Of a DNA stretch of 59,117 nucleotides, positions 16,569-32,242 are shown one piece after another. Made by a program: the position numbers and the translations under genes. The notes beneath the pieces were generated by a model. That model worked only from the letters and a program-made list of their open reading frames with translations, was not told where the DNA came from and searched no databases. Positions within the stretch are counted from its first letter, which is position 1, and every line of letters begins with the position of its first letter. Source of the stretch: Methanomicrobiales archaeon (GTDB lineage: Archaea; Halobacteriota; Methanomicrobia; Methanomicrobiales; Methanospirillaceae). The stretch lies in contig JAPKXQ010000073.1 of the NCBI GenBank assembly GCA_026394765.1, positions 1-59,117 on the forward strand, read 5' to 3'.

Positions 16569-18134
16569 ATGTTTCCGGGGCAGGTCCTCGGGATCGAGGG
16601 CACGGCATGGAACCTCTCGGCTGCAGTCTTTGATAGCCAGGTTGTAGCTGAAAAATCAAAACCCTATTCTCCCCCCCAGGGTGGGATCCATCCTCGTGAG
16701 GCCGCGCAGCACCATGCCACTCACATGGCTGGGGTGATCGGTGCTGTCCTAACTGCCGCTTCATCTCTCGAGGGGATCGCCTTCTCGCAGGGCCCTGGTC
16801 TCGGACCCTGTCTGAGAACTGTTGCCACCGCAGCGCGCGCACTAGCAGGTGCCCTCCATCTCCCCCTCGTGGGTGTGAACCATTGCGTTGCACATGTTGA
16901 GATTGGGAGGTACGACACGGGGTGTAAGGACCCTATAGTACTCTATGTGAGTGGGGCGAATACCCAGGTGATCGGGTACCTCACCGGGCGCTACCGGGTC
17001 CTGGGAGAGACCCTTGACATTGGTCTTGGAAATGCACTCGATAAGTTTGCGAGGGGTATTGGCCTCCCACATCCCGGTGGGCCGGCGATAGAACGGCTCG
17101 CGTGCCAGGGGAGGTATCGTGACCTCCCCTACACTGTGAAGGGTATGGACCTTGCTTTCTCAGGTCTAGTGAGCGCGGCGCAGGGGATGGCTGGGGATAC
17201 CGAGGACGCATGCCACAGTATCCAGGAGGTGGCTTTTGCGATGTGTGTCGAGGTCACCGAGCGAGCGCTCGCGCACACGGGAAAGGAGGAGGTCCTCCTT
17301 GTGGGAGGCGTGGGTGTGAACCACCGCCTCCAGGAGATGCTGGGGGAGATGTGTGCGGAGCGTGGTGCAACACTCCATGTCCCGAAACGGCAGTTCATGG
17401 GGGACAATGGGGCGATGATCGCCTACACCGGGGGCCTCATGCTCGCTAGTGGCCAGGCCATCCCGATCAGAGAGTCCAGGGTGATCCCGACGTTTCGCGC
17501 CGATCAGGTGGATGTAAATTGGAGGGAGCGTGACCCCTGCTTCCCGCGCCATGAACCGGAAGGTGGTATTGCGCGCGGCGCTGAGGCGGTGGTGGCCATC
17601 GGGTCTGAAGTGGTTGAGAAGCAGAGGTCCCCGAAAGGGTACAGACATAGAGACCTGGACCAGCGTCTCATTGCAGAGAGGACAAAGGCTGAAGCGAGGC
17701 TGATGGTGATGGCCAGGCGGGCCGGTGTCTCGACTCCCATTATCCACGACATCGATGGTGCAACCATCGTGATGGAGCGGGTATATGGCCCCCTTCTGCG
17801 CGACGCCCTCACCATTGAGACGGTCCGGGTGGCGGGAAGGGCTGTTGGGCGGCTTCATACCGCGGGCATCGTCCATGGAGACCTCACCACGAGCAATATG
17901 ATACTCCGCAATAACCGCTGTATCTTCATCGACTTCGGGCTCTCTGCCGCATCAATGGAATGTGAATCACGCGGTGTAGACGTCCATGTATTTGTCCAGG
18001 CCCTCACCGGCACCGCGCGCAATGCAGATGCCCTTGTACAGGCCTTCATAGAGGGGTACCGCGAGGAGTTTGCCGGTGCCGATGAAGTTCTTGCCCGTGT
18101 AGACGCAATTGTCCAGAGGGGGAGGTACCTGTGA
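16569..18134 (+). CDS. KEOPS complex fusion Kae1-Bud32 (tRNA t6A synthesis)
   Basis: Makes N6-threonylcarbamoyl-adenosine at tRNA position 37 with Sua5/TsaC. Residues 1-325 are Kae1/TsaD: IEGTAWNLSAAVF, PPQGGIHPREAAQHHATH (metal His), NHCVAHVEIGR, VLYVSGANTQV, PGGPAIE and MGDNGAMIAY. Residues about 335-521 are the Bud32 kinase/ATPase: AEAVVAIGSEVVEKQR, HRDLDQRLIAERTKAEARLM, GIVHGDLTTSNMIL and CIFIDFGLS. The 521-aa fusion is normal for methanogens. Its stop overlaps the next (broken) gene by GTGA. Confidence 0.97.
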   Translation: MFPGQVLGIEGTAWNLSAAVFDSQVVAEKSKPYSPPQGGIHPREAAQHHATHMAGVIGAVLTAASSLEGIAFSQGPGLGPCLRTVATAARALAGALHLPLVGVNHCVAHVEIGRYDTGCKDPIVLYVSGANTQVIGYLTGRYRVLGETLDIGLGNALDKFARGIGLPHPGGPAIERLACQGRYRDLPYTVKGMDLAFSGLVSAAQGMAGDTEDACHSIQEVAFAMCVEVTERALAHTGKEEVLLVGGVGVNHRLQEMLGEMCAERGATLHVPKRQFMGDNGAMIAYTGGLMLASGQAIPIRESRVIPTFRADQVDVNWRERDPCFPRHEPEGGIARGAEAVVAIGSEVVEKQRSPKGYRHRDLDQRLIAERTKAEARLMVMARRAGVSTPIIHDIDGATIVMERVYGPLLRDALTIETVRVAGRAVGRLHTAGIVHGDLTTSNMILRNNRCIFIDFGLSAASMECESRGVDVHVFVQALTGTARNADALVQAFIEGYREEFAGADEVLARVDAIVQRGRYL

Positions 18135-21145: not shown

Positions 21146-22373
21146 TCAACGTATCTTCCAATATACTATCTCAATTTGAGATCTCCTGTTTTTCAATCTG
21201 CACTATATCTGGATCCCTATTCCATAGCGCAGGGGTTTCGAATCCATTGGAAGATAGTATCGTTCCTTTTTTAGAGGGTGCTACCGCCTATCCCCGTGAG
21301 GGTGCTCGCAAGGTCGTACCATACCCGGTACCTCCCATTGTCTCGACCCCGACATGCATCAGGTCAGGGCGATCAAACTCGCATTCCTTTGCGAACTGAC
21401 TTTCGAGGGGGCCACCGTGGAGAGGCCGATCTTGTGGTGGATGAGAAGCGTTGCAAGGAGTTCTTAGTCGGCTTCAATCAGTCCTCGCAAACAGGTCTGA
21501 TGTCGCGAGGACTTTTGCATCAGCATCAGAGGAGATCTCAAATGCAACTTGGTGCGGGTCCCCTTGCCATGAAGGAGACGCGTGATTGAGAGGGTTTGGG
21601 TGGGGCCGCTCATGGTGGCGTTCCTATTCGCAGGTAATAGAACCTGACGATAGGAAAACAGCGTGCATAACTGGTCAGCATTGATCTGGATTTTTAGTTC
21701 CGTTGCGACACATGCGAGGAAGTGAGATGTGGCGGCAGGGCCTATGGGGGGTTCTGCAATAGGGTATGGGCTTGCAGCGCGCTGCAAGCAGGTGGGCTGC
21801 CGGGAGTCCGGAGGTCTCATAGAGGATCATATTGAGGCAGCGAAAAAAACTCGGGAGGATGGAGAGATGTCGGCGTCGATAGTGAGACTGGCATTGGTGG
21901 TGAGGTGTCAGCATATTTTGTGTGGAGGTCCCAATCAAGTTTTCTGCAGTCCCTGCCTATCAACTGGGCAATTGTTGCGGCATCAAATACCACCTCCGAT
22001 GCACTGATGCAGGTGGAATAGGTCCGGGCGGGTAGGTCCCCGCGCGCTCGAAGGATGTAGTTGATGTGGTACGCGCAGCCCTTTGGGCTCTAGATAAAGA
22101 CCGAACACCTCTTGATGACACTGACCAATCAGATCTCGCCCCAAAGAGCCGTCAGGTTGTTTCGTGGGATGATGGGGACCCTCACGGTTTTGGTCTCCGT
22201 CTCCTTCACCCACCTTCTGGCCCCCACTCATATCGTTTGATGGGTCTCTGGTGCCACCTGCCTGATCCCAGGCAGCCATCCTTTTGACTGTCATGACCTT
22301 GTGCATCACACCGCCACATCAGTGCCTTACTGCGAGAGGTCCATCAATCTGGCATCCCACTGGGTTCTTATGA
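21146..22373. other. 1.2-kb stretch without intact genes; probable decayed coding DNA
   Basis: Track ORFs here overlap on both strands and match nothing I recognise. On the minus strand, short protein-like runs change frame repeatedly: KETETKTVRVPIIPRNNL, INYILRARGDLPARTYST with SASEVVFDAATIAQLIG, and AFEISSDADAKVLATSDLFA followed by stops. This looks like one or two minus-strand genes broken by many indels just downstream of a tandem tRNA pair, a common integration spot. No integrase, attachment repeat or transposon end was seen. The original family is unknown. Confidence 0.4.
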
Positions 22374-22394
22374 GTGGGTGGAGCTCTAGTATGT

Positions 22395-23225
22395 ATGCAG
22401 CATGGGTGGTCCTTTGCACCACTCATCGCCCTTACTGTCCTCCTCTTTGCAGTCCATGTATCTGGCGAAGGGGGATATGACGATGCAGTCAGGCTCGTCC
22501 AGAGGGGTGATGTCCTCATTGCGGAAGGAGACTATGAGGCCGCCCTTCCCCTATTTATCGAGGCAGTTGAGGCTGACCCCTACTATAGTATCGCCTGGTC
22601 TCGTCGTGGTGAGGTGGAAATGACCCTCGGGAAGTATTCTGGCGCATTACAGTCATTTGAGCGTGCACTCTCGCTTGACCCCTACTCAACGAAGGCCTGG
22701 AACAGGAAAGGGGATGCGCTGGTATATCTGGGGCAGGAACGTGATGCAATCGCCCAGTATGACCGGGCGCTCGCAGTCAATCCCAATGACCTCGCCTCGT
22801 TTGTCGATAAAGGGGCAGCACTCCAGCGTCTTGGAGAGGATGATGCAGCCATGGAGACCTTTATGGAGGTGGTCCAGATCGCAGATCGTGAGGTGAGAAA
22901 ACACCCTAATGACGCACGTTACGATGCAAACCTCTGGGTGATGCGGGGCGAAGCCCTCTACCGCCTCAGGCGGTACGACGAAGCTATCGAATCCTTCACC
23001 ACTGCACTCTCCATCGACCCGCGCCATGCCGGGGCCACGCAGAGTCGTGCTACAATCCTTGCATACCTGGAAGGTATAAAAACAGCCAATGGCACGCTCC
23101 CAACCGCAGTGCCCTACACAGTGGCCACCACGACCTGGTCTGGAAAACCCATTCCTTACTCTCCGTTATCTGCCATCGCGTCGCTTATTATCGCTGCCCT
23201 CGCAATCTCCGTCTCCAGGCGCTAA
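22395..23225 (+). CDS. Membrane-anchored TPR repeat protein
   Basis: The start is taken at the ATG giving MQHGWSFAPLIALTVLLFAV, a signal peptide/anchor; the track start is an upstream GTG. About five tetratricopeptide units follow, e.g. AEGDYEAALPLFIEAVEADP, LGKYSGALQSFERALSLDP, LGQERDAIAQYDRALAVNP and RYDEAIESFTTALSIDP. There is then a Thr-rich linker and a C-terminal hydrophobic segment SAIASLIIAALAISVSRR, a tail anchor typical of methanogen extracytoplasmic proteins. It is probably an outside-facing scaffold. The gene sits 40 bp upstream of the radical SAM gene, so the two may work together. Confidence 0.8.
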   Translation: MQHGWSFAPLIALTVLLFAVHVSGEGGYDDAVRLVQRGDVLIAEGDYEAALPLFIEAVEADPYYSIAWSRRGEVEMTLGKYSGALQSFERALSLDPYSTKAWNRKGDALVYLGQERDAIAQYDRALAVNPNDLASFVDKGAALQRLGEDDAAMETFMEVVQIADREVRKHPNDARYDANLWVMRGEALYRLRRYDEAIESFTTALSIDPRHAGATQSRATILAYLEGIKTANGTLPTAVPYTVATTTWSGKPIPYSPLSAIASLIIAALAISVSRR

Positions 23226-23266
23226 AAAAGTTTTTAGGACCTGTACCACCAGGAATGGCATGACCC

Positions 23267-24388
23267 TTGCACTACCACGTCCTCCTTACTGATCGTTGCA
23301 ACCTGAACTGCAGGTACTGCAGGGGAAAGATACTGGAATGTCCAACAGGTGAGATCACCAGTACTTCGTCCATAGATAACGATCTCCCGTTGGACTACTC
23401 AGCAGGAGTAAGTGGCCTCGCACGCTTTCTCAGTCGCGACCCGCACCCGGTACTGACGTTTTATGGGGGTGAACCTTTCCTAAGATCCGATCTCATCAGG
23501 GAGATCATGGAGGCAATCCCCACTGCAGGTTTTATTGTCCAGACCAATGGCATCCTTCTTGACCATCTTGAACCATCGCTCGTCAGGAGACTTTCTACTA
23601 TTCTTGTCTCAATAGATGGGCCTGAGGAGGTCACCGACAGGAACAGGGGGGCGGGGACGTACCGGGCCGTGATGAAAAACCTCAAGGCAATTGTAAGGGG
23701 TGGATATCGTGGCGAGGTTATCGCGCGGATGACGGTCAGTGCGGGAACTGATATGAGGGCTGCAGTGCGGCACCTCGCAGGCAATGATGAGTTCTCGTTT
23801 GATTCGATCCACTGGCAGATGGACGCAAACTTCTGGCCAGATGGCACATGGGACGAGTTCGCTCCCTGGGCCGTTACATCCTACAATCCTGCTGTCAGTG
23901 CCCTGGTAGATGACTGGGTGCAAGTCATGGAAGCGCGGGGCATCGTGCTGAGGTGGTACCCATTCCTGGACCTTGTTGAGGACCTCCTCCTGGGCAGGGC
24001 AAGTCGCTTGCGGTGTGGGTCAGGGTACGCGAACTACACAGTCATGACGAATGGTCAGATCATCCCCTGCCCTGTCATGGTAGGCATGCGCGATTACTAC
24101 CTTGGGACCATTGCAGATACCGATCCCACCAGACTTCCTGAAGTCAATGTGGGCGCACAGTGCTCTGACTGTTCAATCTTCACTTTCTGCGGGGGGCGAT
24201 GCCTCTATGCAAATGTTCTCTCCCCCTGGCCCCCTGAGGCAAGAGCCGAAGTATGCAGGACTGTGTTCCACCTCCATGCCACCCTCCAGGGAGCGCTTCC
24301 AGCCATTCAGAACCTCATTGTCAGGGGTGTTATCAGGTCCGAGGACTTTGTCCATGAGAAGTTCAATGGCTGCGAGATAATCCCCTGA
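23267..24388 (+). CDS. Radical SAM/SPASM enzyme, putative peptide-modifying (AF0577/Mhun_1560-like)
   Basis: A 373-aa radical SAM protein with TTG start HYHVLLTDRCNLNCRYCRG; the CxxxCxxC cluster motif is CNLNCRYC. Later parts are VLTFYGGEPFL, TNGILLDHLE and VSIDGPEEVTDRNR. The C-terminal region carries auxiliary cluster cysteines: LRCGSG, IIPCPVMVG, QCSDCSIFTFCGGRCLY and EVCRTV. This layout matches archaeal families catalogued as putative peptide-modifying enzymes (TIGR04083/TIGR04084 type). No precursor peptide gene is evident next to it, so the substrate is unknown; the upstream TPR protein is the closest candidate partner. Confidence 0.85.
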   Translation: MHYHVLLTDRCNLNCRYCRGKILECPTGEITSTSSIDNDLPLDYSAGVSGLARFLSRDPHPVLTFYGGEPFLRSDLIREIMEAIPTAGFIVQTNGILLDHLEPSLVRRLSTILVSIDGPEEVTDRNRGAGTYRAVMKNLKAIVRGGYRGEVIARMTVSAGTDMRAAVRHLAGNDEFSFDSIHWQMDANFWPDGTWDEFAPWAVTSYNPAVSALVDDWVQVMEARGIVLRWYPFLDLVEDLLLGRASRLRCGSGYANYTVMTNGQIIPCPVMVGMRDYYLGTIADTDPTRLPEVNVGAQCSDCSIFTFCGGRCLYANVLSPWPPEARAEVCRTVFHLHATLQGALPAIQNLIVRGVIRSEDFVHEKFNGCEIIP

Positions 24389-24412: not shown

Positions 24413-24841
24413 TCATCGGTGGTATGGCTCACCCCGGATGATCCTGAATGCTCGGTAGATTTGTTCGAGGAGGATGACCCGCGCCATCCCATGCGTGAAG
24501 GTGAGGCGTGAGAGGGATAGGGTTGTTTCTGCGGCATGAAGAAGGTCTGATGAGAGCCCATCAGGGTCGCCAATAATGAATATCACCGTTCCCACCGATG
24601 AGACCTCTGCCGTTTTCAGAAACTCAGCGAGGTCACTACTTGACCACGCAGATCCCCTGGCATCGAGTGCTACAACCCGCGCCGCCCCTGCTGACCTGGC
24701 GAGGTGGCGCGGCATCCTTGCCAGGGAGACCTCTTCCATACTGACCTTTACATAAGGGCGGAGACGTGTGAGGTACTCTCCTGATGCCGCGCGGAGGAAG
24801 TCCTCCTTGAGGGGCGCTGCAGCAAGGATCCGGATATGCAT
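24413..24841 (-). CDS. rlmH: 23S rRNA (pseudouridine1915-N3)-methyltransferase RlmH
   Basis: SPOUT-class methyltransferase, 142 aa. It shows RILAAAPLKEDFLRAASGEY at the N-terminus, VVALDARGSAWSSSDLAEFL, the knot motif VIFIIGDPDGLSSDLL and the C-terminal LSRLTFTHGMARVILLEQIYRAF that forms the SAM-binding trefoil. Length is a little short of bacterial members (~155 aa) but normal in methanogens. It is convergent with the radical SAM gene; its 5' side is the structured gap before the thioredoxin gene. Confidence 0.93.
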   Translation of the reverse strand: MHIRILAAAPLKEDFLRAASGEYLTRLRPYVKVSMEEVSLARMPRHLARSAGAARVVALDARGSAWSSSDLAEFLKTAEVSSVGTVIFIIGDPDGLSSDLLHAAETTLSLSRLTFTHGMARVILLEQIYRAFRIIRGEPYHR

Positions 24842-25109: not shown

Positions 25110-25688
25110 ATGGAACTTCGTAAGGACCTCGTCACTGGGATCGCTGCCATAGTGTTCGTCGTAGTCGCACTCGCTGCCGCGGGGTGCATGGCCCCAACTT
25201 TTCCTGGGGGGAACAAATCCCCCCCTATGCAGAATGAAGCTGTACCGGGTGGATGGCCACTGCTTCAGGATGTGACAACAGGGGAGTCTTTCAGCCTGGA
25301 TGAACTGACAAGAGGCCCCCTGCTTATCTCTTTTTTTACCATTGCCTGCCCTATCTGCACGGCGCAGCAGAAGGAGGTTACCGCGCTCACCCGTGAGATG
25401 CCAGGAGTTTTTACTCCACTCGGCCTTGATATCGACCCTAATGAAGACGAGGTAGCCCTCAGTGAGCATATCGGGAAGAATCAGTTTTCGGGCCGTTACG
25501 CGGTCGCACCCCGGGAGATCACCCAGGCATTCCTGGACCGGTTTGGGATAGAGATAATCACCCCTGCTGCAGCACCCATCGTCCTCGTCTGCAATGGGAC
25601 CATATACAAGTTCAGAAGCGGATATAAGACGAAGACCGAGATCAGATCGGTGATTGCGGGGGTGTGTGGCACTGGAGGTCCTCAATGA
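25110..25688 (+). CDS. Thioredoxin-like lipoprotein (TlpA/redoxin family)
   Basis: A 192-aa exported protein. The signal peptide ends in the lipobox ALAAAGC, giving a lipid-anchored protein outside the membrane. The thioredoxin fold follows: LLISFFTIACPICTAQQKEV with the redox pair C-P-I-C at about residue 88, LGLDIDPNEDE, FSGRYAVAP and the cis-proline region ITPAAAPIVLVCNG. It overlaps the CcdA-like gene by at least 20 nt. The pair very likely forms an electron relay, CcdA passing reductant across the membrane to this protein. Its substrate is unknown. Confidence 0.87.
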   Translation: MELRKDLVTGIAAIVFVVVALAAAGCMAPTFPGGNKSPPMQNEAVPGGWPLLQDVTTGESFSLDELTRGPLLISFFTIACPICTAQQKEVTALTREMPGVFTPLGLDIDPNEDEVALSEHIGKNQFSGRYAVAPREITQAFLDRFGIEIITPAAAPIVLVCNGTIYKFRSGYKTKTEIRSVIAGVCGTGGPQ

Positions 25689-26343
25689 GGCGGGAGTAGC
25701 ATTCCTCGCAGGCCTCTTCACTCCCCTCGGTGCGGTATGTGTCCTCCCTCTCTACCCTGCCTACCTCGCATACCTCGTCGTCCAGGCCCGGGTGCTCCCA
25801 CCCCGGATCGGACCCGTAATCCTCGCCTTGGTGGTCACAGCAGGTGTCCTCACCGCAATGGCAGTCATGGGGGCGGTGATCATGCTCCTCATGGCAGGCT
25901 CACTCTCCGTGGTGATGATGGCGTTATCTCCGTTCCTCTATGCAGTCCTCGCGTTTATCGGAGCCCTGCTCATCGCAGGATCTGTCGTGGAACTTCGGTT
26001 ACCCTCTATTCAGGTACCTGCACTGGCATCACCCTATGGGGGGGCATTCGTCTTTGGGCTCTTTTTTGGGGTATTGGTGCTCCCTTGCAACCCCGGGCCG
26101 GTACTCCTCCTCTTTGCCCTTGGCATCGCCGGGAACAGTATGATCCCCATCACCACGTTCCTTGCATTTGGGATCGGGATGGCTACCCCTCTCTTTGTCC
26201 TCTCACTCTTCACCGCGGTCGAAGGGTCCCGCTGCACGTCGTTCCTTGTAAAGAAGAGGAGGGTGGTCCAGGCAGCCTGCGGTACCTTTATCCTTGCAAT
26301 CGCTCTCTTTTACCTGATAACGAGTCTTGGAGTGGTCATTTAG
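25666..26343 (+). CDS. CcdA/DsbD-type thiol transporter
   Basis: Six-helix membrane protein of the cytochrome c biogenesis transmembrane family. The two redox cysteines are visible: one in FTPLGAVCVLPLYPAYLAYL in the first helix and one in VLVLPCNPGPVLLL in the fourth. Further helices extend to about residue 225. Start choice is uncertain: the track uses TTG at 25654, and GTG at 25666 is given here. Both lie inside the thioredoxin gene, so translation is coupled. It reduces the extracytoplasmic thioredoxin partner with electrons from cytoplasmic thioredoxin. Confidence 0.85.
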   Translation: MALEVLNEAGVAFLAGLFTPLGAVCVLPLYPAYLAYLVVQARVLPPRIGPVILALVVTAGVLTAMAVMGAVIMLLMAGSLSVVMMALSPFLYAVLAFIGALLIAGSVVELRLPSIQVPALASPYGGAFVFGLFFGVLVLPCNPGPVLLLFALGIAGNSMIPITTFLAFGIGMATPLFVLSLFTAVEGSRCTSFLVKKRRVVQAACGTFILAIALFYLITSLGVVI

Positions 26344-26938: not shown

Positions 26939-28113
26939 TGGAAGGAATCGCACTTGCCCTCATAGTCTGTGCTATACTCGCAATCATCGCACGGCGCTTT
27001 GCACTCCCGACGATCCCCTGCTACCTCCTCGCGGGTCTCGTCCTTGGCAGGAGCGGTCTTCAGCTTGTAGAGCCCAGCGAAGTCTCCTCATACCTCACCT
27101 CACTCGGCCTCCTCTTCCTTCTCTTCTTCATGGGCCTGGAGATACGACCCTCCCGCATCTGGAGCAACCAGTCTGCCATCTTGACGAGCGGTGTCATCGA
27201 CCTACTCATCAATGGGGTAATCGGGTTCTCCGCTGCCTATCTCCTTGGATTCTCTTCATTTGACTCGGTCATCGTTGCCGCGGCATTCTTCATCAGTTCC
27301 ACTGCGATGGCAGTGAGCTCCCTTGTTGAGAACCACAAGCTCCTGATGCGGGAAGCAGAAACGGTAGTTTGGCTCATGATTTTTGAAGACATCGCCTTAA
27401 TCGTCATCCTCGCCCTTCTGGGGGCCTCATCAGAGCCAATAACCATGACCCTCCTCAAGATCGCCCTCTTCCTTTTGGCGATCATAATTATCGTCAGGGT
27501 CGCAAGAGAGGAGATCGTGGCGATCATGAAGAGAGAGGACGACCTCCCGGTCCTCTTCACCTTCTCTGTCCTCATTACCGTGGCCGCGCTCTCACTCGTC
27601 CTCAAAGTCCCAGAGTCCTTCATGGTCATCGCGCTGGGAACCGCTCTCGGGGCGGTGGATACCGGGGCATTCGAGCGCCATGCAAAGCCCTTCAGGGACG
27701 TCTTCCTCATTATATTCTTTGTTTTTTTCGGGATCGGCATCGACTTCTTTGCAGGGGGAGTGCAACTCCCTGCAATCATTGCGATCAGTGCCGCGGCAGT
27801 CCTCTCCAAGCTCGCATCAGGTATCGTGATCGGGCGGGCAGTCCATGGGGACGCCATGTCTGGGATCGAGGTCTGGTCCAATACCATTGGGAGAGGTGAG
27901 TTCTCGATCGCGGTCGCAACCCTGTATGGGTCTGCAATCGTTTCGAGCACCATCGCTGCGGTGGTGATTGTGACATCAATAGTCGGCTCGTTCGTAGCGG
28001 GTGCCAGTACAAGGATAGGAGATGGCATCTGGGCACTCACCAACAAGGGAGAGAGGAATGATAAACCAGGTAATGGAGAGGAGCGATCGCCACCCGTTCT
28101 TGAAGGACCTTAA
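26938..28113 (+). CDS. CPA2-type cation/proton antiporter (KhtU/KefB-like)
   Basis: Membrane antiporter of 391 aa with about 12 hydrophobic segments, typical of KhtU or NhaS-like proteins without an attached RCK domain. Family features are [45 protein letters not shown] and the transport-site-like [12 protein letters not shown], plus FFGIGIDFF. The C-terminus is a charged cytoplasmic tail. With the KhtT-like subunit it should export K+ (or Na+) for pH/ion control. Its last 4 nt overlap the convergent sepS gene. Confidence 0.88.
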
Positions 28114-29705
28114 TCCCCTAACTCTCCTTCCATGACAGACCTTACTGTGACAAAGACCGGACCGCGGGTGTCTACCTTAAGCGCATGGTCGGTGATGGAC
28201 CGCATCGCATAGTCCTCTATTGCGAGGTTCAAGTCGCCTGGGAGCTTTGCCATCTTCACCTGCACAAGCGTCCCCTTCCCGCATGCAGCTGCCCGTTCAA
28301 TCCGCGCAGCGGCACGTGACGCTACCGCATCGATGAAGAGTATGCCGGTACTGACCCCCTCTTCTCTCACCTGTGCCCATCTCTCCCCTTCAGGAACACC
28401 TAGAATTGACCCGTGATGGACAAAGACCTCGTTACGGCAGGCCGGGCCAAGGAGTCTGGTATTGGACTCCGGCTCCTCCACCCATACTGTTGCTACGCCA
28501 CCTGCGAGGGGGCCCCGATATGCCTCAAATGAGCAAGGACCGGGCTCGTTCCCATGGGTAAGAGCGGTCTCCCGGATCGCGCGCGCGATGACCTTCCCTT
28601 CCAGGCTGGAGGGTTCCTCGCGGAACCTGACTCCGCGCGCGATCTCCAGGTCAGTGAGGGTACGGGGGAAGAACTGGGGGTGCACAAGTGCGCGGATATC
28701 GCTGGCACCAGACGCGATCATCGCGAGCCGCTCTACCCCGAGTCCCAGGTTCATCACAGGGACCCCGATCCCGTACTCTGCGAGTGCAGAAGGTGAGTAG
28801 AGTCCGAATGTGGCGACTTCTACCCATGCATGTATGGGGTGGCGTGCATAGACCTCGGTCTGCGTACCAGGCATGTAGTACTTCGACCGCTTCTCATCAG
28901 GTCTGAAACGAAAATCTGTATACCCAAATGCAGAGAGGAGCGCCTCAGAAACCGCCTTTCCCTCCTCGTTTGTGACGTCTTCTCCTGCCACCACGCAGGA
29001 GGCAGAATGATAGCTCATCAGCCTTGTCGGGCCCTCTTCCTGCTCTCTCCGGAAGCAGCGGTCTATTGAGAATAAGCTGAGGGGAAGTGGGTTTTTATCC
29101 CATATGGTGGCGAGGGTGAGGAACCATCCGCTCGTCATATGGCTCCTGAGCGTGCTTTTAGAGGACTCTGGGGAGAGGTCCCGGAACTCTGGGAATACCT
29201 CTCCCAGGATCCGTGCGACCGCTCCATCATCTGCGGCGAGAACCTCTGCAAGGGTGTGGACGAGTTCGTCCCCATCGATGGTCCCTTTCTTGTAGGCGTG
29301 GAGCGTCTCGCGAAGTCGCTCCTCTACTGCCATAGAGACCTCACTGCCTGTTATTCTGGCTATCTCCTCCAGCTGCCGCCGCGCAATTCCCACATTTGGT
29401 CTGGGGAGCCCACCAAGGTAGAAGACCCTGTCCAGTACCGCCCCTGCTTCGGGGCCGAACTGACGGCGTACCTCCTGTTCTTCGATTATTATTGGATTTT
29501 CGGCCTCTGCAAATCCCATCATGAGGTATGCTTCCCTAAGGCGCTGGATTGTTGCAAAGACCGGGTGCTCGCGGGCCCTTGGATAGGTGAGGCAGGGGTA
29601 TTGCGCATCGTGCCCTGATGGGGTGACAACACCTAACCCCTCGTGCCATGCTGCCTCAAAGTTCTCGCGCGCCCGCTCCCTGAAGTACCCCACATCGAAT
29701 CGCAT
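28110..29705 (-). CDS. sepS: O-phosphoseryl-tRNA(Cys) synthetase
   Basis: Class II aminoacyl-tRNA synthetase that charges tRNA(Cys) with phosphoserine, later converted to Cys by SepCysS, the methanogen route to cysteine. It has 531 aa. Features are the N-terminal [14 protein letters not shown], the motif 1 region [16 protein letters not shown], the motif 2 region [18 protein letters not shown], and motif 3 [14 protein letters not shown], then the C-terminal tRNA-binding part. It is the last gene of prf1-argS-taw1-sepS, one base after taw1. SepCysS is not in the window. Confidence 0.96.
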
Positions 29706-29706
29706 A

Positions 29707-30597
29707 TCAAGACCTTCCCATCAGGACCACCCTGCTTTCAGGACATTCGTCCAGGATGGTATAGTCACAGCACGAGGCGATCTCCCTGGCAAATGCCTGC
29801 ACCCTCGTGTGCTCAGGCATGTTGTTGCGGGAGAGCCTCCTCCGGCTGTAGCCAAGGTACATGTACCCCTTTACCTCAATATACGTCGCGCCGGAGTTCT
29901 GTGCCAGGCGTGCGAACCCGGCTGGGTCTGTATCATTCACCCCTTCAACCAGGGTTATCCTGATGGCAGACCGCCTCGTCCCAAGGATGGCGAGACTCTC
30001 CTGCACATACTCCCAGCTGTCCTCGATCGGCCGGCATACTTTCTGGTACGTTTCAGGGTCGGCAGCGGTGAGGGAGAGGTAGAGCTGCATCGGCCTGCAC
30101 TTCGCAAGTACATCTGGGCGAGTACCGTTACTCACCAGGAACGTGGAGTATCCGTGGTCGGTCAGGGAGGAGATGAGTGTGGGAAGGGGCTCATAGAGTG
30201 TGGGCTCTCCTGAAAGTGAGATGGCGACATGGCGTGGGGCGAGGGCCTCATGAAACCGGGTGGGAGTGACATAAGGCGAGACTTTGTACCCCGAGAGAGC
30301 CCTCTTCTGGAGCCCTGGGAGGGCAGAAATTATCTCATCAGGGCTGCACTCGCGTTCTTCCCCCACATCATGCTCGAAGGAGCGCCAGCAGTAGAGGCAC
30401 CGCTGGTTACACTTAAGGGTGGGGGTCATCTGGACACAGCGGTGGCTCTCGACCCCATAGAACTGTGCTTTGTAGCACATCCCCTCCCCACGGAGGGAGC
30501 GCTTGCACCAGAGGCAGGGCTTCACCGCAGCCGAGGCGTCAGGGCTGACAAACTGGTACCCTTGCCGTCTGAGTAATTCACATGCTCCGGAGTGCAT
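29707..30597 (-). CDS. taw1: tRNA 4-demethylwyosine synthase (TYW1, radical SAM)
   Basis: Builds the tricyclic wyosine base at G37 of tRNA-Phe from N1-methylguanosine and pyruvate. The start is set at [18 protein letters not shown], which matches archaeal TYW1; the track ORF begins 49 codons earlier inside argS. The radical SAM motif is [14 protein letters not shown] at about residue 73; an extra cysteine set lies at [10 protein letters not shown] near residue 28, and [13 protein letters not shown] follows. The start overlaps the end of argS by 20 nt. Length (296 aa) is normal. Confidence 0.94.
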
Positions 30598-32242
30598 CGA
30601 TCCCCAGGGTTTCCAAGGCCTCATGGAGCGTGTTCTGCGCTGCGCGGACCAGGGTGATCCTGCTCTCCCGTGTTGCGCCCTCGCTCCCCAGTACCGGCTC
30701 GAACTGGTAGAACGCGTTGAAGTGATCTGCGAGCTCGCGCGCATACACCGCTAGGAGGCCGGGACGCAGGGTCATGGCAGTCTCTTCAATCACTGCCGGG
30801 AACCGTGCGATATGTCGGGCGAGTGCTACCTCATGGGTGGTCACAATTTCATATGTGGGCTGCCAGTCACCTGCTTTGGCAAGGATGCTGCAGGCTCTGG
30901 CATGCGCGTACTGGATATAGGGGCCACTCTGGCGCTCGAAGTTGAGGGCCTCTTTCCAGTTAAAGACTGTACTCTTGTCAGGAGATATCCTGATGATGTC
31001 GTACCTGATAGCAGCGCGTGCCACTGCACGGGCGATCACCGTGCGCTCCTCTTCAGAGAGTTCAGGCCGGCGAGTGGTCACCTCATCGAGTGCCCTCATG
31101 GACACCTCCCGGATCAGGTCGTCAGCAGAGACAAACGTGCCTGCCCTGGTACTCATTGCACCCTCTGGAAGGGATACGAACTCGAAGTGGACGATATCAG
31201 GGGTCTTTTCACCCATCAGATGAAGGGTCGCTATGAGCTGCGCGCCGATCAACTTGTGGTCTGCACCGAGCACGTCGATGACGCGGTCAAAGTTCCTTCC
31301 CTTCCAGGTATGGTACGCGAGGTCCCTTGCCGCATAGACCGAGGTACCGTCACTTCTTCTTATCACGTACTCCTTGTCAAAGCCCTGTTCCCTGAGGTCA
31401 AGGTACTCCTTTCCATCGACATGATACCCGGGGAGGTGCCGCAACTGCCCAATTATCCGGCTGGTGTCACCGTTCCTGATGAAGTCGCTCTCCCAGACGA
31501 ACCTGTCGTGAGGTACCGCGAGGTCCCGGAGGGTAACAGAAAACCCTGCAAGACATCGGCTCACCGCGTCCCGAAACTGGCGTTCGACCCCAGGATCCCC
31601 CTGTTCTACCCGCTGCATCAGGGAGTCTACTGCAGTGGTGAGGCCAGGGTCCTCCTCAAGGGCGCGATTAGCGGCGATATAGACCCTCGCGATGTAATGA
31701 TCTGGTTTTTCATTGGGATCTGGGAGTGATGTCGCACGACCAAGCCCCCATACCACGATCGCGATCTGGCGCCCCATATCGTTCACATAGTACTGTACTT
31801 CGACCGGAAATCCCGCTTTTCGGAAGCAGCGGGCAAGGGTGTCGCCGATGATTGAGTTCCTGATATGGCCCACGTGGAGCGGGCCATTTGGGTTTGCACT
31901 GGTGTGCTCCAGCACGACCCGCGTGTCTTTCGATGGGAGCGCACCATATCCCGGCTCGAGTGCTGCCGCAAGCGCGCGGGTGAGGCGTTCTGTCCCGATC
32001 GTGAAGTTGAGGTAGGGCCCGGTGGCCGTGATGGTGATACCTGCAAGTGTCGGATCTTTAGCAAGGGACCTGGCAATCTCTGCAGCAATGGGTGCAGGAG
32101 CAGACTTTTCTCTTTTAGCAAGAACAAATGCCACAGTACTCGCAAAGTCAGCGTGGCCCCCTCCCTCGGTCAAGGGGATGTCGTCAAGTTTGGTCGCGCG
32201 GCAGAGCGCGTCAAGGATCTCCTCTTTTGCAGTCAGCACCAT
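30578..32242 (-). CDS. argS: Arginyl-tRNA synthetase
   Basis: Class I synthetase, about 554 aa. Start ATG 32242 overlaps the prf1 stop as TGATG. The N-terminal tRNA D-loop domain occupies residues 1-95 (FASTVAFVLAKREKSAP), the HIGH-type motif is HTSANPNGPLHVGHIRNSI, the core carries GTSVYAARDLAYHTWK and DVLGADHKLIGAQL, and LPEGAMSTRAGTFV stands for KMSKS. The C-terminal anticodon-binding helices contain FNAFYQFEPVLG. It is translationally coupled in the release factor/argS/taw1/sepS operon. Confidence 0.97.
   Translation of the reverse strand: MVLTAKEEILDALCRATKLDDIPLTEGGGHADFASTVAFVLAKREKSAPAPIAAEIARSLAKDPTLAGITITATGPYLNFTIGTERLTRALAAALEPGYGALPSKDTRVVLEHTSANPNGPLHVGHIRNSIIGDTLARCFRKAGFPVEVQYYVNDMGRQIAIVVWGLGRATSLPDPNEKPDHYIARVYIAANRALEEDPGLTTAVDSLMQRVEQGDPGVERQFRDAVSRCLAGFSVTLRDLAVPHDRFVWESDFIRNGDTSRIIGQLRHLPGYHVDGKEYLDLREQGFDKEYVIRRSDGTSVYAARDLAYHTWKGRNFDRVIDVLGADHKLIGAQLIATLHLMGEKTPDIVHFEFVSLPEGAMSTRAGTFVSADDLIREVSMRALDEVTTRRPELSEEERTVIARAVARAAIRYDIIRISPDKSTVFNWKEALNFERQSGPYIQYAHARACSILAKAGDWQPTYEIVTTHEVALARHIARFPAVIEETAMTLRPGLLAVYARELADHFNAFYQFEPVLGSEGATRESRITLVRAAQNTLHEALETLGIDALRSM

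Follow-up and report, generated by a model that had tools for sequence, protein, structure and literature searches.

The radical SAM/SPASM enzyme encoded at positions 23,267-24,388 (plus strand) of contig JAPKXQ010000073.1 from a Methanomicrobiales archaeon (assembly GCA_026394765.1; 59,117 nucleotides analysed, hereafter the window) is the product of a stand-alone, usually single-copy archaeal gene that occurs in several archaeal phyla. Its family, TIGR04084, had already been catalogued; what is new here is the combination of a pan-archaeal orphan distribution with an invariant C-terminal tail. That such an enzyme is maintained at about one copy throughout an order of methanogens, and occurs in several archaeal phyla with neither a precursor nor a regular partner, suggests that a conserved archaeal protein or molecule undergoes a modification still to be discovered.

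Family assignment and conserved motifs

The gene encodes 373 amino acids from a TTG start codon and scores 262 bits against the NCBIfam model TIGR04084 (rSAM_AF0577; cut-off 225), with model positions 1-347 covering residues 5-373, and is therefore a member of a catalogued, uncharacterised family. Membership is clear, and the family name assigns no function. A full-text literature search for AF0577 and TIGR04084 retrieved no relevant paper. The anaerobic sulfatase maturase model TIGR03942 reached 39 bits, below its cut-off of 349.

The radical SAM cluster motif C11-x3-C15-x2-C18 (23,297-23,320, plus strand) is 99% conserved among 149 members. The SPASM domain (24,014-24,256, plus strand) exceeds the cut-off of model TIGR04085 (35.8 versus 27 bits) and contains the complete cysteine pattern C250...G263-x4-C268, C299-x2-C302-x5-C308-x3-C312 and C330, so that the SPASM-like cysteine set named in the first-pass annotation is present with all seven residues. 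Only C330 is less well conserved (86%), being replaced by aspartate in seven Thermoproteota loci and by tyrosine, arginine or lysine in 13 loci of the order, mostly in one family (f2). These substitutions may leave one auxiliary cluster with an open or altered ligand site in the lineages concerned. Cys369 of the tail was considered as a stand-in for the lost Cys330 and rejected, as the Thermoproteota loci without Cys330 also lack the tail cysteine and the members compared show no systematic compensation.

Distribution across archaea

Matches above the TIGR04084 cut-off were present in 174 of 199 Methanomicrobiales genomes. In a phylum sample of genomes with a completeness of at least 90% (the window's own genome excepted), all 43 Methanomicrobiales genomes contained exactly one match at E<=1e-30, and 75 of the 197 genomes were positive in total, including members of four other families. 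The enzyme is also encoded by about half of the genomes in a sample of the Thermoproteota, the phylum of a Hecatellales locus (73/151), by 16% of those in a sample of the Thermoplasmatota, the phylum of a DHVE2 locus (24/147), and by Heimdall- and Njordarchaeota (Asgard) records. Among 14 named control genomes, Sulfolobus acidocaldarius was the only positive one, and no match reaching E<=1e-30 was identified in Methanosarcina acetivorans, Methanocaldococcus jannaschii or Haloferax volcanii. The distribution resembles that of an ancient archaeal core gene that some lineages have lost, rather than that of a mobile RiPP cassette.

Gene neighbourhoods and search for a precursor

Neighbourhoods were compared for 122 loci from four or more archaeal phyla, and ORFs of 20-110 amino acids within about 2.5 kb of the enzyme gene were clustered. 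No small ORF common to different clades was found in these neighbourhoods, as sharing was confined to one local cluster of related genomes. The absence of a short precursor near the enzyme, first noted for this window, thus extends to the family as a whole, and the suggested search for co-occurring small ORFs yielded none conserved beyond that local cluster. The enzyme is not part of a local RiPP cassette. With no precursor family in any lineage, it is very likely that the substrate is encoded elsewhere or forms part of a larger protein, as had been proposed.

The conserved small ORFs evaluated as precursors were rejected, comprising shadow ORFs, local zinc-ribbon proteins, a ferredoxin and an unexplained ORF of 20-25 amino acids in Archaeoglobales-like genomes. 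The latter contains a CxDCMxC motif (e.g., MEIPEKCQDCMICYRKKRDR), is located on the minus strand about 1 to 1.8 kb downstream of the enzyme and is conserved in five loci (L190, L191, L192, L196 and L198), a range too local for a family-wide precursor.

The neighbours of the enzyme change clade by clade and are different in almost every lineage. They include an AcnX swivel protein and a TIGR04013 radical SAM protein in family f2, a 55-amino-acid zinc-ribbon protein in two genera (g3 and g4) and, as identified by eye, an operon for ribosomal proteins and an RNA polymerase subunit in DHVE2 and preQ0-type genes in some Archaeoglobales-like genomes. A TIGR00024 phosphoesterase gene adjoins the enzyme gene at a distance of a few bases in two distant groups and in opposite order, upstream in three Archaeoglobales-like loci (L190, L191 and L198) and downstream in five DHVE2 loci (L040, L043, L045, L047 and L048). 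This pairing, tight and operon-like, is suggestive as a lead only and is insufficient to assign a function. Comparison of neighbour families between phyla identified no pathway genes travelling with the enzyme.

The upstream TPR protein

Upstream of the enzyme gene and on the same strand, the window encodes a 276-amino-acid TPR protein (22,395-23,225, ATG start) with an N-terminal hydrophobic signal peptide, TPR repeats matching Pfam TPR_1/TPR_2 (E about 1e-33) and a C-terminal membrane anchor with a basic tail. The anchor (SPLSAIASLIIAALAISVSRR; 23,160-23,222, plus strand) lies within the last 45 residues, where hydropathy reaches a maximum of 2.3, and is followed by two arginines; orthologues in the TPR loci keep this topology. 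Both ORFs are as first annotated, and the intervening gap, given there as 40 bp, measures 41 bp.

Orthologues of the TPR protein, defined by about 40% identity and a best E value of 2e-50 or lower, were found in 31 genomes, including the window's own, in a search of 81 genomes of the window's family, and in eight of its 17 genera. In all 27 TPR loci examined the orthologue immediately precedes the enzyme gene and shares its strand, and the ORF ends lie 19 to about 80 bp apart; a few apparent overlaps represent over-extended ORF starts. At the level of orthology no relocated copy was found elsewhere in the genomes of the family, where a single weaker second match occurs (G177). The pair lies in an HtpX-TPR-enzyme-RlmH-SepRS block that is inherited as a whole in the TPR loci. 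The RlmH-like SPOUT methyltransferase gene (24,413-24,841, minus strand) is convergent with the enzyme gene in much of this block and stands outside the system. The link between TPR and enzyme genes outlasts that between enzyme and RlmH: several of these loci show RlmH displaced or lack it altogether.

The TPR gene is thus more than a chance neighbour of the enzyme, and the two genes are probably co-transcribed in one branch of the window's family. This particular TPR gene is absent beside the enzyme in the rest of the order and in Archaeoglobales-like, Thermoproteota, Thermoplasmatota and Asgard genomes; the enzyme therefore cannot rely on it, nor can its product be the sole substrate of the enzyme. 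The earlier suggestion that the pair may define a system was not supported: adjacency was kept in every TPR locus checked, and the gene is missing rather than relocated elsewhere, but the conservation is limited to the eight genera and the enzyme is widespread without it. Its function is not defined by the pair, and the proposal of a distant substrate is the sounder part of the first-pass reading. At most, the TPR protein is a lineage-specific partner. In the enzyme tree, the deep nodes that bear on a single origin of the pair are weakly supported. Direct contact between the two proteins is not obvious, because they are predicted to lie on opposite sides of the membrane, with the TPR protein on the outside.

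TPR-type proteins unrelated to that of the window adjoin the enzyme on the same strand in four further loci, upstream in L040 and L048 and downstream in L143 and L144, at a frequency at most marginally above chance.

Several other features of the window were recorded. The approximately 1.2 kb between a tRNA-Gly/tRNA-Val pair and the TPR gene (21,146-22,394) contain only unsupported ORFs and no Rfam match, and an Rfam search of the whole window returned tRNAs only. At 25,110-26,343, the gene for a redoxin-like lipoprotein precedes that for a DsbD/CcdA-like membrane protein; among the TPR loci, a matching pair occupies this position only in L296, L297 and L309, and those three show no RlmH here. 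A single ORF at 16,569-18,134 combines a TsaD (Kae1) domain with a C-terminal kinase-like region and is probably a Kae1-Bud32 fusion. On the minus strand, 28,110-29,705 and 29,707-30,744 encode an O-phosphoseryl-tRNA synthetase and, adjoining it, a second radical SAM protein resembling by eye the wyosine-forming Taw1.

The invariant C-terminal tail

The enzyme ends in NGCEIIP (24,365-24,388 including the stop codon, plus strand), and E-[IV]-[IV]-P directly precedes the stop codon in 146 of 149 distinct aligned members. One further member ends in E-A-I-P, and the two remaining exceptions (L038 and L051) are truncated or broken sequences. E370 and P373 are each 99% conserved, which equals the conservation of the cluster cysteines, and most of the preceding dozen residues vary. 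Both glutamate codons, all isoleucine and proline codons and all three stop codons are in use at the tail, and this free synonymous variation therefore indicates selection on the protein. In the window's genome, N-x-C-E-[IV]-[IV]-P-stop has a single match, namely the enzyme gene itself.

None of 55 distant SPASM relatives carries the E[IV][IV]P ending. The nearest two, divergent proteins from Candidatus Methanoperedens (L057, 28-1131, and L062), end in E-C-V-P and may form a further family that has a tail of this kind. L057 scores 140 bits against TIGR04084, below the cut-off, and adjoins genes for a 521-amino-acid protein and a 285-amino-acid nucleotidyltransferase-like protein.

No published explanation of the tail was found. 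In MoaA, a conserved C-terminal tail is functional and enters the active site. The tail of QueE forms hydrogen bonds with the substrate and tightens on it (PMC8124187), and a conserved serine at the very C-terminus of LipA holds an auxiliary cluster (PMC5352715). By analogy with these enzymes, the tail described here most likely becomes ordered over either the active site or an auxiliary cluster during catalysis.

Structure models and closest solved relatives

The AlphaFold2 model of the window's enzyme has a mean pLDDT of 83.5, with residues 368-373 below 50; that of a DHVE2 relative (L043) has a mean of 88.3, with about 71 for the last block, and the tail is not confidently placed in these models. 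Over almost their full length, both match the anaerobic sulfatase-maturating enzyme anSME, and the L043 model also ChlB (TM 0.59-0.69). CteB and anSME are the nearest solved chains by sequence, and the closest relatives and folds in both comparisons are mainly protein or peptide modifiers. The match to CteB begins at CteB residue 101 versus residues 5-8 of the enzyme, which therefore has no room for an N-terminal leader-binding domain. Within the enzyme chain, no N-terminal extension precedes the barrel; a leader-binding (RRE) domain might still be encoded elsewhere.

Proposed mechanism and alternative explanations

Beyond the observed family membership, distribution, lack of a local precursor, conservation of the tail and lineage-restricted TPR pairing, we infer a protein substrate, a gating role of the tail and a role of the TPR protein. 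The enzyme would work like anSME, in trans on a protein or peptide encoded elsewhere in the genome. SAM would be cleaved on the CxxxCxxC cluster, the resulting 5'-deoxyadenosyl radical would abstract a hydrogen from a residue of the substrate, and the SPASM clusters would take up or shuttle the electron. The tail N-x-x-E-I-I-P-COOH most likely folds back as a lid or gate for the active site or an auxiliary cluster. Selection extending to the very carboxylate would then be accounted for. Where the secreted, membrane-anchored TPR protein is present, in one branch of the window's family, it may handle the modified protein after export. Taken as a whole, this scheme has in our judgement an even chance of being correct. 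A bolder formulation, in which a widespread archaeal core enzyme modifies a conserved protein in an as yet undescribed way and the E-I-I-P carboxylate tail serves as active-site gate or cluster ligand, or in its extreme version as the substrate, is put forward only tentatively, at clearly less than an even chance.

Small molecules, too, can serve as substrates of SPASM enzymes, which counts against a protein substrate. A small molecule or cofactor bound with the help of the tail would fit a core gene that occurs without a precursor in aerobes and anaerobes alike, and tail contacts with small substrates have precedents in MoaA and QueE (PMC8124187); some SPASM/twitch enzymes, such as AhbD (PMC10452713), use small molecules. 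However, the sequence and fold neighbours mainly modify peptides or proteins and no pathway genes accompany the enzyme gene, so that we regard a small substrate as rather unlikely. Still less probable is a RiPP-type maturase whose short precursor was overlooked or has its gene at another place in the genome. It would account for the SPASM domain and for best NCBIfam and fold neighbours that include ranthipeptide and sactipeptide maturases and ChlB, but the 122 neighbourhoods lack a conserved small ORF, and near-universal, usually single-copy occurrence in the order is unlike that of sporadic RiPP cassettes. The missing N-terminal leader-binding domain also argues against it, although ChlB suggests that such a domain is not strictly required.

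Both remaining explanations appear very improbable. If the TPR protein were the enzyme's dedicated substrate or partner within a specialised two-gene system, the invariable order and strand of the pair in 27 loci, the absence rather than relocation of the orthologue and the unrelated TPR neighbours in a few Thermoplasmatota loci and in family f6 would be expected; yet such a TPR gene is missing from the surroundings of most family members, the pair belongs to an inherited syntenic block with HtpX, RlmH and SepRS, and the predicted compartments of the two proteins differ. Least probable, by a little, is that the tail is itself the substrate, so that the enzyme would modify either its own C-terminus or the C-terminus of a partner subunit. 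The invariant glutamate and terminal proline at the exact C-terminus, with no other substrate in sight, would agree with this, but gating or cluster ligation explains the same conservation, and we know of no precedent among SPASM enzymes.

Comparison with known systems

The enzyme anSME has no leader-binding domain, and none appears to be present in the chain of the window's enzyme; anSME acts in trans on proteins and to our knowledge has no EIIP tail. It shares the radical SAM and SPASM domains and is the top fold match (PDB 4k36-4k39, TM 0.59-0.68), at only 16-20% identity. CteB has about 100 extra N-terminal residues ahead of the aligned region, its leader-binding part, which the window's enzyme lacks. 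This SCIFF peptide maturase (PDB 5wgg) is the best PDB match by sequence and likewise combines radical SAM and SPASM domains. ChlB (PDB 9gm3 and 9gmc) is of SPASM type and similar length and reaches a TM of up to 0.69 with the L043 model, but was crystallised with the leader of its own precursor, of which the window's enzyme has no local counterpart.

A conserved, functional extreme C-terminus is the feature shared with MoaA, QueE and LipA, which differ from the window's enzyme in motifs, substrates and accessory domains, so that the likeness in mechanism is one of analogy only. NF040546 (NCBIfam, CUAEP/CCAEP-tail radical SAM (seleno)protein) is another radical SAM family whose name refers to a conserved tail motif; it is a separate family, encountered only as a weak cross-match of another protein, and a literature search returned no paper on it. 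No difference was found from TIGR04084/rSAM_AF0577 itself, which matches the window's enzyme over its full length with the same domain order and with a model that extends to the last residue.
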